Assembly: GCF_001955535.1 (NCBI RefSeq)
Contig: NZ_MPVN01000003.1
Span: forward strand, 310,001 to 374,000
Length of the DNA stretch: 64,000 nucleotides
Reading direction: 5' to 3'
DNA from: Paenibacillus sp. FSL H7-0326
GTDB taxonomy: Bacteria > Bacillota > Bacilli > Paenibacillales > Paenibacillaceae
In this document: positions 25,544 through 59,331 of the stretch, one piece after another
Numbering within the stretch: position 1 is the stretch's first letter
Layout of the letters: each line of letters begins with the position of its first letter
Translations under genes and position numbers: made by a program
The notes under the pieces: model-generated
What the model was told of the DNA's origin: nothing
The model's input: the letters and a program-made list of their open reading frames with translations, nothing else
Database searches by the model: none

Positions 25544-25587
25544 AATGGCTATTCACAGCACGTAAAATATAAGCGTGAATAGCCATT
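25544..25587 (-). terminator. Intrinsic terminator after the pro-peptide gene
   Basis: Perfect 13-bp arms AATGGCTATTCAC (25544-25556) and its complement (25575-25587); read leftwards the stem is followed by TTTTT. It closes the receptor/pro-peptide unit. Confidence 0.83.
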
Positions 25588-25624
25588 ACATTATGTAGTT
25601 CATTGTTGGCAAGGAGATCGTTAA

Positions 25625-25747
25625 TTATTTAGGTCTAAACTCAGAACCGTGATCTAGAAGCTGGATTGAATTTGGTACAAAGTCAGGATAAACTACGAAG
25701 ATGAACAGACCCAACACTGTCAGAGCGGCTAGAATACCTTTTTTCAT
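25625..25747 (-). CDS. Candidate secreted quorum-sensing pro-peptide (40 aa)
   Basis: A 40-codon ORF read directly from the sequence. It begins with ATG at 25747, preceded by GAGGAGA eight to nine bases upstream. The N terminus is MKKGILAALTVLGLFIFVV, an export-type signal (Lys-Lys then a hydrophobic core), and the C terminus is polar, QLLDHGSEFRPK, from which a short mature peptide could be cut. Its first 65 bases overlap the 3' end of the receptor gene in another frame, and a terminator follows. This is the layout of Phr, NprX, AimP and Paenibacillus Alo pro-peptides. The mature sequence is unknown. Confidence 0.75.
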   Translation of the reverse strand: MKKGILAALTVLGLFIFVVYPDFVPNSIQLLDHGSEFRPK

Positions 25748-26558
25748 TAGGGAGATCTCCTCTCATAAGAATTTTATTGAGTATATCATAACACGTTTTG
25801 AGCTGAGAAACAGTACCAAATTTCCTAAGAATTTCAAACAAAGAAATTGCCTTTTTGAAATACTTGTCATTTCTCATTTCATCGGCAGCATCCAGAATAT
25901 GAAGGGTAATATCAATAGCGGTTGAATGTTCCTCATTCATATTTCGGTATAGTGCGAGCTGGTACTGGTAGGACAAGTAATGTGCTGCTTTTACTTTATC
26001 ATTGTAATGCTTGTAATCTTCTACGTAGTTTGATAGGTGTGTTATGATCGAGTCCACGTCATAATTAAATTGATTCGCAGAACGAAGGATATTGATTAAG
26101 CCTTGAAGTACTTGATCGGGGTTAGCGTCTAGGAATTGTACATATTCGGGAAGCCTGTCCTTCTTGCCATCCAGAATATCCAGCTGTAGCTCATTGGCAG
26201 AAGAAAAGAATTTAAAGTGTTCGATCAGATATTTGCCGGTTTCTGTGGAATCATCAAGCCAGTCCAGATTGGCATAGAAGGAGATATACTCTCTTGATTT
26301 GGTGAAATCACCCAGCTTCTGATAGGAGAGACCACTCATTAGATGACTGTATCCAAAGTAATAGATGATATGGTCTTTATAAACATGTGACGTGGAGTCT
26401 GTCTCTATAAGCTCTTGATGAACTTCCTTAGCTAGCTGCATGAGCTGATCGGATAAGGATAGAACCTCTTCCCAATTCTCGATTGTATAATTTGATTGGA
26501 TCAAATTTACTAGAGAGTCCAAGTCCAGAGGCTCATCGTAAGGAAAATGTACACTCAT
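25683..26558 (-). CDS. RRNPP-type peptide-receptor protein (TPR-like, no HTH)
   Basis: A 291-residue, all-helical protein with repeated helix pairs that fit a degenerate TPR solenoid (for example YFGYSHLMSGLSYQKLGDFTKSREYISFYANL and the ALYRNMNEEHSTAIDITLHIL region, described here by position about 65-100 and 200-225). There is no N-terminal helix-turn-helix, so it would act like Rap proteins through protein binding rather than directly on DNA. It strongly recalls the receptors paired with pro-peptides in Paenibacillus (Alo systems). A 40-residue exported peptide gene overlaps its 3' end, supporting a receptor role. The far C terminus (RYSSRSDSVGSVHLRSLS) is low in order, perhaps a consequence of that overlap. 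Confidence 0.78.
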   Translation of the reverse strand: MSVHFPYDEPLDLDSLVNLIQSNYTIENWEEVLSLSDQLMQLAKEVHQELIETDSTSHVYKDHIIYYFGYSHLMSGLSYQKLGDFTKSREYISFYANLDWLDDSTETGKYLIEHFKFFSSANELQLDILDGKKDRLPEYVQFLDANPDQVLQGLINILRSANQFNYDVDSIITHLSNYVEDYKHYNDKVKAAHYLSYQYQLALYRNMNEEHSTAIDITLHILDAADEMRNDKYFKKAISLFEILRKFGTVSQLKTCYDILNKILMRGDLPNEKRYSSRSDSVGSVHLRSLS

Positions 26559-26873: not shown

Positions 26874-27452
26874 TTGAGTGAGAAGTCTAATGCGAAGGAA
26901 TGCATCGTAAATACAGCAGCAAGACTGTTTTTTTCACAGGGATATCACGCGACCGGGCTGAATCAGATTATTAAGGAAAGCAATACACCCAAAGGCTCGT
27001 TGTATCACTACTTCCCGCATGGCAAGGAAGAGCTCGCCCATGTATGTATCCAAAAAGCGAATGAGGATATTTTGCAGAAATTTGAAGCTTGCTTTGCAGC
27101 CAGCGACAATACCGGAGACGCTATACAACTCTTCGTTCATAAGCTTGCCGATGAGACTGAAGCAGCTGGATTTACAGGTTTTTTGCCATTCAGCTTCTGG
27201 GCTGCTGTCGAAACATCGTGCATCAGTCATCAGCTGCGAGAAGCTTGTCAAAGCGTATTTGCAGATTGGCAGCAAGTGATTGCCAAGAATCTCATTAAGG
27301 ATGGCATTAGTGAACAGAAGGCACGAGAAACAGGGTTATTGGTCATTTCCTTGCTCGAGGGAGCACTCATTATAAGCCTCACCAACCAAGACAAACAGCC
27401 GATGCTGACGGCTGCAGATTATTTGTCGGTTGTTGCAAAGAACGCGAGGTAG
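26874..27452 (+). CDS. lmrA: TetR-family repressor, LmrA/YxaF-like
   Basis: A 192-residue TetR-type regulator with the N-terminal HTH (IVNTAARLFFSQGYHATG, then LNQIIKESNTPKGSLYHYFP and GKEEL) characteristic of the LmrA/YxaF branch; GLNQIIKES-PKGSLYHYFP-GKE is almost identical to B. subtilis LmrA as I recall it. TTG start at 26874, with AAGGA about 11 bases upstream. Ligand binding by the C-terminal helical domain would relieve repression of the following efflux gene. A matching operator lies in its promoter, implying autoregulation of an lmrAB operon. Confidence 0.88.
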   Translation: MSEKSNAKECIVNTAARLFFSQGYHATGLNQIIKESNTPKGSLYHYFPHGKEELAHVCIQKANEDILQKFEACFAASDNTGDAIQLFVHKLADETEAAGFTGFLPFSFWAAVETSCISHQLREACQSVFADWQQVIAKNLIKDGISEQKARETGLLVISLLEGALIISLTNQDKQPMLTAADYLSVVAKNAR

Positions 27453-27498: not shown

Positions 27499-28992
27499 GT
27501 GGAGGTTACCATGAAAGCTGATACTGTACAAGAGAGGCAGGAACAAAAACAATATAAGGTACTGCCCATTTTGTTCGCCATGCTGCTCAGCGGATTTATC
27601 GGTCTATTTGGAGAAACGGCACTTAATGTAGCGATGACTCCGCTGATGGATCTGTTAGAAGTAGGGCCTACAACCATTCAATGGCTGACTACTGGTTATT
27701 TGCTGATATTGGGTATTTTAGTACCTGTGTCTGGATTGCTGCTGCAATGGTTTACGACGAGACAATTGTTTACAACTTCATTAATTTTTTCAATTGCAGG
27801 TACTCTGGTAGCTGCGTTGGCACCAACCTTTGAAATGCTATTAATTGCAAGGGTGCTTCAAGCAGTGGGTACAGCTTTGTTGCTGCCGCTGATGTTTAAC
27901 ACCATATTGATTATTTTCCCGATTGAGAAGCGGGGTTCTGCGATGGGTCTGATCGGACTGGTTATTATGTTTGCGCCAGCGAGCGGCCCGAGTATTTCCG
28001 GTTTGATTCTTGCGAATCTGACCTGGCATTGGATCTTCTGGATTTCCTTGCCGTTCTTTATCATTTCGCTGGTGTGCGGCTTAATGTTCCTGCCGAACAT
28101 CTCGAAATTGACGAAACCCAAAATTGATGTACCTTCCATTGTCCTATCCACACTTGGTTTTGGGGGCATCGTTTACGGATTTAGTAGTGCGGGCGGACAC
28201 GGAGAAACCGGCAGTGGCTGGGGCAGCCCCGTTGTTATCGGTACACTGTTAGTCGGAGTATTGTCTTTGCTCATCTTCAGCATCCGACAGCTCAGAATGA
28301 AGCAGCCGATGCTGGATCTGCGGGCATTCAAGTATCCAATGTTTACAATTGGGCTCATTCTCATCTTCTTCTGTATGATGATGATGTTATCGTCCATGCT
28401 GATATTGCCAATGTATTTACAGCAGGGACTTGCGGTTACTGCCCTGACAGCTGGATTGGTACTATTGCCGGGCAGCTTGCTGAATGGATTTTTGTCTCCC
28501 GTGATGGGTCGTTTGTTTGACAAATTTGGTCCTAAATGGCTTGTTCGTATTGGACTCGTTGTAGTGGCTGCTGTCCTGTTTATGTATTCTGGCATTGAGC
28601 CAACTACACCGCTGGCTATGATTATTACAATGCATTTATTCATGATGATCGGTATTTCCATGATTATGATGCCTGCACAGACGAATGGACTTAATCAGCT
28701 TCCACCGGAGTATTATCCGCACGGAACAGCTATTATGAATACACTGCAGCAGGTGTCTGGAGCGATCGGAACTGCGGTCGCAGTAAGCATTCTGAGTGCA
28801 GGTCAGGCAAGCTACTTGAGTGGAGTGACGAATCCGGAAAGTCCGGAGAATCAACTCGCTGCATTTACAAGCGGCGTACAAAATGCCTTTGTATTCGCAT
28901 TAATCTTGGCTGTCATTGGTCTAGTCATCTCTTTCTTCGTTAAGCGGGTGCAGGTTACTGGACAACAAAGTGGTCAAGGTCCTATGCATTAA
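27499..28992 (+). CDS. lmrB: DHA2-family (14-TMS) drug efflux transporter, LmrB-like
   Basis: A 497-residue MFS protein with about 14 membrane helices. DHA2 signatures: NVAMTPLMDLLEVGPTTIQW after helix 1, GYLLILGILVPVSGLLLQWF, RVLQAVGTALLLPLMFN (motif C region) and GSAMGLIGLVIMFAPASGPS. It exports drugs in exchange for protons; the B. subtilis homologue gives lincomycin and puromycin resistance. GTG (27499) and ATG (27511) both have a good ribosome binding site (GAGGAGG, GGAGG), so the start is ambiguous. It lies 46 bases after lmrA in the same operon. Confidence 0.9.
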   Translation: MEVTMKADTVQERQEQKQYKVLPILFAMLLSGFIGLFGETALNVAMTPLMDLLEVGPTTIQWLTTGYLLILGILVPVSGLLLQWFTTRQLFTTSLIFSIAGTLVAALAPTFEMLLIARVLQAVGTALLLPLMFNTILIIFPIEKRGSAMGLIGLVIMFAPASGPSISGLILANLTWHWIFWISLPFFIISLVCGLMFLPNISKLTKPKIDVPSIVLSTLGFGGIVYGFSSAGGHGETGSGWGSPVVIGTLLVGVLSLLIFSIRQLRMKQPMLDLRAFKYPMFTIGLILIFFCMMMMLSSMLILPMYLQQGLAVTALTAGLVLLPGSLLNGFLSPVMGRLFDKFGPKWLVRIGLVVVAAVLFMYSGIEPTTPLAMIITMHLFMMIGISMIMMPAQTNGLNQLPPEYYPHGTAIMNTLQQVSGAIGTAVAVSILSAGQASYLSGVTNPESPENQLAAFTSGVQNAFVFALILAVIGLVISFFVKRVQVTGQQSGQGPMH

Positions 28993-52088: not shown

Positions 52089-52112
52089 TTATGACATCAA
52101 CAATTACATACC

Positions 52113-52259
52113 AAAGTTTTCTAGGGTTCCGGGTCGTATAATCGACTGGCTGGTCCGAGAGAAAACGCATCAGCAGCTTATCTACTGATGTACACGGCGG
52201 GAAAAAAGCCCGGGAGAATCCATCAAAGTGTTCTTTGATGTTTCTCCCGGGCTTTTTTA
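52113..52259 (+). ncRNA. Guanidine-I (ykkC-yxkD) riboswitch with terminator
   Basis: The conserved aptamer blocks are all present: CTAGGGTTCCG (52121-52131), CTGGCTGGTCCGAGAGA, ACACGGCGGGA and AAAAGCCCGGGAGA. The last block is shared with a strong terminator, AAGCCCGGGAGA...TCTCCCGGGCTT plus TTTTT (52207-52259). Guanidine binding should keep CCCGGGAGA in the aptamer and block the terminator, so guanidine turns the operon on. Confidence 0.93.
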
Positions 52260-59174: not shown

Positions 59175-59195
59175 TCTAACCATAAGTTAATAACC

Positions 59196-59331
59196 AAATG
59201 TTATCTAGGGTTCCGCGATGATGTATCGGCTGGTCCGAGAGATAACTCACAGCCTTACGGCTGTGTCACGGAGGGATAAAAGCCTGGGAGATAAACTGTC
59301 TGAATGACAGTTTGTTTCCCAGGCTTTTTCA
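59196..59331 (+). ncRNA. Guanidine-I (ykkC-yxkD) riboswitch with terminator, second copy
   Basis: All aptamer blocks: CTAGGGTTCCG (from 59205), CGGCTGGTCCGAGAGA, TCACGGAGGGATAAA and AGCCTGGGAGATAAA. Terminator stem AGCCTGGGA...TCCCAGGCT plus TTTTT (59281-59331) shares the last block. It should switch on the SMR genes when guanidine is present, as for ykkCD in B. subtilis. Confidence 0.94.

Follow-up and report, generated by a model that had tools for sequence, protein, structure and literature searches.

Does the window, the 64,000-nt stretch of Paenibacillus DNA analysed here, encode a self-contained peptide signalling unit, and how would a receptor without an HTH pass the signal on? The locus consists of a TPR-type receptor gene overlapped at its 3′ end by a small ORF. 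All coordinates below are positions within the window, and the term clade is used for the receptors closest to the window's receptor (12 loci from eight genomes).

Organization of the locus

25683–26558, minus strand: receptor gene, encoding an all-helical TPR-type protein of 291 aa without an HTH (from translation, homology to AloR13 and the structure model)
25625–25747, minus strand: pro-peptide gene, 40 aa, with a hydrophobic start and the polar end DHGSEFRPK (from translation and conservation in 12/12 clade loci)
25683–25747, minus strand: overlap of the two genes, 65 nt in different frames, encoding the C-terminal tail of the receptor (residues 270–291, pLDDT <50)
25756–25762, minus strand: pro-peptide ribosome-binding site GAGGAGA, inside the receptor gene and at the same position in the 12 clade loci
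25637–25654, minus strand: codons for DHGSEF, residues 32–37 of the peptide and predicted core of the pheromone (from the xHGxxx layout and AloP13 SHGRGG as given in the text of PMC7425212)
26082–26084, minus strand: codon of receptor residue R159, which covaries with the D preceding HG
25544–25587, minus strand: intrinsic terminator hairpin with a T-rich run behind it (fold z −5.6)

The receptor, the overlapping 40-codon ORF, the GAGGAGA site and the terminator described in a first-pass annotation, which gave no strand, were all present and all lie on the minus strand. The codon preceding the receptor ATG is TAA, and the receptor therefore has no in-frame N-terminal extension. At the other end of the gene, the receptor terminus RGDL-NEK results from reading, in the receptor frame, the ribosome site and the start of the pro-peptide gene. 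The terminator folds at −20.2 kcal/mol compared with −7.5 (sd 2.25) for shuffled sequences, a value equalled by 0/200 shuffles. A consensus terminator scan listed none at the locus because the hairpin loop, at 13 nt, is outside the 3–8 nt that the scan permits.

The receptor belongs to a short branch related to AloR

As a stand-in for AloR13 we used L039 (467 aa, genome G025), located via the published Alo13 primer. A start resembling this primer was found in 13/15 genomes; in L035, L039 and L042 it leads to a pro-peptide with SHGRGG at its end, and the other starts carry different HG peptides. The L039 pro-peptide ends in SYFHNITIGNGSQITVSSHGRGG, as published in the text of PMC7425212. With AloR13 as the query, the window's receptor was matched across AloR13 residues 185–442 with 31% identity (E 2.8e-38). 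At the level of sequence, this confirmed a kinship between the pair and the Alo (AloR-AloP) quorum-sensing systems known from Paenibacillaceae. The original reading of the locus as an RRNPP-type receptor with an exported-looking pro-peptide, akin to Paenibacillus Alo, was thus borne out, both by this homology and by the conserved pro-peptide described below.

Relatives of the receptor were detected in 75/75 genomes of a genus search and, among the matches listed, in 147/295 genomes and 5/19 genera of a family sample. Paenibacillus sp. TCA20 has a receptor that is 99% identical to that of the window. We collected 109 loci and removed L032–L034 (the same places as L004, L008 and L003), L053 and L060 (which overlap the stretch of L039) and the fragments L058 and L059. 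The remaining set, our first sample, held 79 short (<340 aa) and 23 long (≥390 aa) receptors; 40 of the loci were hand-picked and mostly short, so that 79 versus 23 is not a frequency. Intermediate lengths occur among the relatives (L137, 331 aa; L139, 346 aa; L095, 397 aa, counted as long). After 32 further rows, mostly near-copies, had been removed by hand, a tree of the shared region in the remaining 70 rows separated 54 short from 16 long receptors by a single branch (100/100). The tree is unrooted and does not distinguish loss from gain of the N-terminal part; its long rows are from presumed P. polymyxa group genomes, and long receptors of other genera are not in it. A second sample comprised 80 rows from the same genera, picked among the matches listed (75 from the family sample and five from the genus search).

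The two receptor types can occur together. In G025, AloR13 found 13 long frames (448–564 aa), one interrupted 341-aa frame and three short ones (295, 310 and 257 aa). We also searched nine genomes, the eight of the clade including the window's own plus G014, with two long AloR queries. Matches began at AloR13 residues 175–204, or at residues 171–191 of the second long query, in frames of ≤316 aa; the exception was a weak 53-residue HTH-region match in G024 (E 5.6e-4). No long AloR was found in the window's own genome with these two queries, and one Alo-type TPR gene was found in each of G009 and G024. From these searches, the short receptor seems to have no Alo partner that carries an HTH.

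The only other AloR13 match in the own genome was a 266-aa paralogue (L002, 1459–2259 of contig C18), with no pro-peptide by the criteria used. Together with L052, L054 and L055 it is sister to the clade, and it ends at about the point where the overlap would begin. A further type of short receptor (266–283 aa), with KSLKPDI near the start, was seen at L012, L013, L026, L027, L070, L075–L078, L086 and similar loci; no HG pro-peptide was found beside the examined members of this orphan branch.

The receptor lacks the region that holds the published HTH

The first-pass annotation had described the receptor as HTH-less. This was upheld by the AloR13 alignment, which starts at residue 185 and so omits the ~184 N-terminal residues that contain the HTH in the published receptor, and by the in-frame stop before the ATG. 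Pfam also shows no HTH in the receptor, a weak test, as AloR13 itself scores none. Searches of Pfam and NCBIfam gave the receptor no RRNPP family name.

All Alo receptors are stated to have an N-terminal HTH in the text of PMC7425212, and a published statement, likewise taken from running text, has Rap as the only receptors without one. The short-receptor branch contradicts both statements. We found no mention of an HTH-less Alo branch in the text of published work. Short receptors may be among the 16 AloR of PMC7425212, given that its text sets 250 aa as the lower limit for the homologues retained. We therefore file the receptor as an HTH-less sister branch of AloR rather than as an AloR in the published sense. 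One short plasmid relative is listed as a ‘DNA-binding protein’, a name that was probably inherited.

The receptor is predicted to fold as a TPR clamp

A structure model built from seven sequences, of which two lie at contig ends, was all-helical (pLDDT 82, pTM 0.74), with 12 residues preceding the first predicted helix and residues 270–291 unstructured. No PDB match reached E ≤ 0.001 in Foldseek, which gave one BFVD match, S5MC02, an entry without a name; a sequence search of solved structures returned only two unrelated matches (E about 1). When the Foldseek candidates were re-ranked, peptide-bound NprR (4gpk) came first (Z 14.4, 4.0 Å over 230 residues, from residue 130), and the AimR row 5zw6 had Z 11.5. 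LGN TPR domains matched the model equally (Z 14.2). The fold is thus consistent with a TPR clamp for a peptide but is not specific for RRNPP proteins, as LGN TPR domains match as well as Rap and NprR do. It is the homology to AloR13 that suggests that the TPR region is an RRNPP-type peptide-binding domain, with binding itself a prediction.

The expectation that the receptor would act ‘as Rap does’ found no support. No RapH_N match was found in the receptor or in its own genome, with a positive B. subtilis control and profiles that are weak in this family. The phi3T Rap and RapJ alignments (Z 14.1–14.2) start at residues 78–82 and that of RapF at residue 83, all past the three-helix bundle; those of pLS20 Rap start at receptor residue 9–10, so that a remnant of the bundle may be present.

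The pro-peptide is conserved and under selection

To judge how often such an ORF arises by chance, we used 156 control genes, the other genes of the window and of loci L110–L121, with criteria nearly but not exactly those applied to the receptors. An SD-preceded hydrophobic ORF of 26–65 aa was present at the 3′ end of 10/156 controls, and none of the 156 had one with HG near its C terminus. HG pro-peptides, in contrast, lay beside 48/79 short and 14/23 long receptors; by the criteria used, they were absent beside the other 31 short receptors.

Conservation of the small ORF among relatives (its start, site and coding pattern) had been set from the outset as a test of the proposal. The ORF, the ribosome site and a [DN]HG core were kept in all 12 clade loci. 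In the part of the pro-peptide past the receptor stop, the three closest loci showed nine synonymous and two non-synonymous differences (pN/pS 0.06), summed across three non-independent pairs. The same part gave pN/pS 0.15 in a second close trio and a weaker 0.52 across all 12 loci, distant pairs included. For the receptor, pN was 0.007–0.017 and pS 0.24–0.37 among the three closest loci, values indicating that strong purifying selection acts on it.

The predicted signals are mostly C-terminal HG hexapeptides

The mature AloP13 peptide is SHGRGG according to the text of PMC7425212. In the second sample, 44 of the 49 distinct HG pro-peptides ended three residues past the last HG, giving a hexapeptide xHGxxx; in the first sample 44/76 ended at this distance and 15/76 had six residues after HG. 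From the xHGxxx layout of Alo-type pro-peptides, the predicted core in the window is DHGSEF, followed by RPK. Other peptide ends in the clade include DHGSEY-TGR, DHGADF-RPR, DHGADY-EGR and NHGADY-EG, and DHG[SA][ED][FY] is common to 10/12 clade loci. The earlier description of the signal as ‘private’ was therefore too narrow. As for the variable C-terminal core of 5–8 residues that had been anticipated, a hexapeptide core with variable positions was indeed found, but the HG inside it is invariant.

Several variants of this layout were seen. The pro-peptides of L073, L089, L123 and L124, and of L038 and L041, carry two HG cores per chain (e.g. NNHGANSFQPNNHGANY and FGHGNGNYSTYGHGNGH). NG replaces HG in those of L197, L212, L214 and L223, and also of L211 and L216 (ENGVGG, NGVGG, NGSGG). 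In related genomes, near-identical signals end in FYHGANH beside short receptors (the L014 family) and in FYHGAGG beside long ones (L044 and L046). Judged by these sequences, cross-talk between the short and the long systems is possible.

In short receptors, R at residue 159 goes with D at the first position of the signal

All 11 short receptors of the first sample with a DHG peptide have R159. They represent two lineages: ten belong to the window's clade, and the other, on a P. polymyxa SC2 plasmid, has 32% identity and is an independent case. At 159, E is found in L050 and L051, the closest relatives with an NHG peptide, and in the same sample none of the 70 receptors with a non-acidic residue before HG was basic there; K, D and E occupy the position in the three EHG receptors. 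This link came from a scan of many columns. Position 265 outscored 159 when acidic and non-acidic signals were compared, and may be no more than a clade marker; when D was compared with N, the two columns showing a single residue throughout the 11 were 156 and 159.

A general charge rule was tried and rejected. Among the 80 loci of the second sample, of which 49 have an HG pro-peptide, 0/13 EHG receptors were basic at 159 and both DHG receptors, which are long, have G; R, K and K went with L, F and I before HG. Two G-labelled rows of that sample are EHGVGHG peptides read at the last HG. All 18 of its NHG receptors have E at 159. What is left is a D–R link in short receptors, for which the covariation is suggestive of, and would fit, a contact with the pheromone. 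The orphan paralogue L002 carries E at 159 and possibly listens for N-type signals.

Genomic surroundings and mobile elements

The genes adjoining the window's pair are common to the two nearest genomes only. This setting includes two genes that diverge from the receptor gene, 26874–27452 (plus strand) and 27499–28992 (plus strand), which we take to be a TetR-like regulator and an MFS-like transporter; another neighbour gene in the window is presumably an alkaline phosphatase. At the other nine clade loci, the receptor alone matches in place, with distant transporter matches farther off in three. Judged by eye from the ORFs, four of these nine (L111, L112, L118 and L120) have several neighbour genes in common, and part of the clade thus has a common setting of its own. 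No neighbour gene of the window's pair or of the clade loci stands out as a target of the receptor, and none of the own genome's four SpoOE-like matches is on the window's contig. In favour of a signalling pair, the genome gave 18 matches for oligopeptide-binding proteins, 17 of them above the cut-off. Elsewhere in the window, at 52110–52218 and 59194–59292 (plus strand), are two guanidine-I riboswitches (RF00442; 92.8 and 82.3 bits) ~7 kb apart.

Receptor relatives were found on 30 plasmid records. Five of these loci were compared: L122, L123 and L124 are short with an HG pro-peptide, L125 has a pro-peptide without HG and L126 is long. Three viral contigs carry pairs; L127 is certainly short, and L128 and L129 begin at contig ends, so that their class is not readable. 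A search of viral contigs for long AloR found none. One phage relative is listed.

Proposed function and alternative explanations

We consider it probable that the pair forms a self-contained cell–cell signalling unit of the Alo (RRNPP) kind. By analogy with Alo13, the 40-aa pro-peptide would be exported, cut and re-imported in a short form. This form is most likely DHGSEF, either alone or still carrying RPK, within limits that are themselves predicted, and it would bind in the TPR groove of the receptor (291 aa). With no DNA-binding domain in the receptor, the most likely output is direct binding of a partner protein: the peptide would most likely reshape the clamp and thereby switch its hold on a partner not encoded next door. 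More tentatively, at somewhat less than even odds, such receptors may constitute a third RRNPP output class. These would be TPR-clamp-only proteins of an old Alo branch with peptide-gated partner binding, alone in some genomes and also found on plasmids, in which a switch of the first signal residue from N to D was accompanied by one from E to R at receptor residue 159. The pLS20 Rap alignments from residue 9–10 led us to give this class less weight and a Rap-like mode more.

In that Rap-like mode the receptor would hold Spo0F or a response regulator until released by the peptide. The absence of an HTH, as in Rap, and the presence of Rap among the best structural matches, with pLS20 Rap aligning almost from the start, speak for it; with no RapH_N match in a search whose control was positive, the other Rap alignments starting only at 78–83 and a mere 12 residues before the first predicted helix, we regard it as unlikely. 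It is less likely again that the short receptor is a decoy or inhibitor, soaking up peptide or pairing with and blocking an HTH-bearing AloR. It does correspond to the C-terminal part of AloR, and in related genomes similar signals (YHGAGG and YHGANH) accompany long and short receptors, but searches of the own genome and of the nine short-receptor genomes yielded no long AloR, bar the HTH-region match in G024.

Two further explanations question whether there is a signal or a working receptor at all. Half the length of the small ORF lies within receptor sequence and its hydrophobic part varies freely, as might be expected if it were a membrane peptide with no link to the receptor, or simply a consequence of the overlap. 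The HG core and C-terminal layout that it has in common with AloP13, the selection past the overlap in the three closest loci and the 0/156 controls make this reading very improbable. Least credible of all is a decayed, functionless AloR: 184 N-terminal residues are missing and some relatives have stop codons, but the receptor is under strong purifying selection and the short receptors form an old, separate branch.

A signalling unit with direct partner binding is thus the reading we favour. A branch that has cognate pro-peptides but neither an HTH nor any Rap bundle that we could detect implies either that the TPR clamp itself signals or that an undescribed effector exists. G009 and G024, which have one pair and in which no other Alo-type TPR gene was found, make the question of signalling testable, and the predicted hexapeptide is a synthetic ligand to start from.

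Comparison with known systems

The nearest known system is Alo of Paenibacillus polymyxa (PMC7425212), for which secretion, processing and a response to the peptide have been shown experimentally with Alo13, according to the text of that study. The window's pair resembles Alo in its homologous TPR region (31% to AloR13 residues 185–442), in a pro-peptide that overlaps the receptor 3′ end and carries a C-terminal HG hexapeptide, and in dimensions: a receptor of at least 250 aa (here 291 aa) with a 30–50 aa ORF with a hydrophobic N terminus at its 3′ end (here 40 aa). It differs in that the receptor is without the N-terminal ~184 residues and hence without an HTH, that the hexapeptide is followed by a three-residue tail, unlike in AloP13, and that the contig has no SpoOE-like gene, whereas Spo0E adjoins Alo13.

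Like Rap-Phr, the pair combines an HTH-less TPR receptor with a small pro-peptide predicted to be exported, and the folds match (Z 14); unlike Rap, the receptor has no RapH_N match and no sequence kinship was found, with phi3T Rap, RapJ and RapF aligning past the bundle. NprR of NprR-NprX is the best structural row (4gpk), but it has an HTH and a three-helix bundle (text of PMC9765709), and its match begins at residue 130. With AimR-AimP (arbitrium) the pair has in common a TPR receptor and a peptide signal, and viral contigs carry some of the short Alo pairs; AimR has an HTH (text of PMC9765709), whereas the window's receptor has no DNA-binding part. As in RRNPP systems generally, the pro-peptide gene adjoins the receptor gene.
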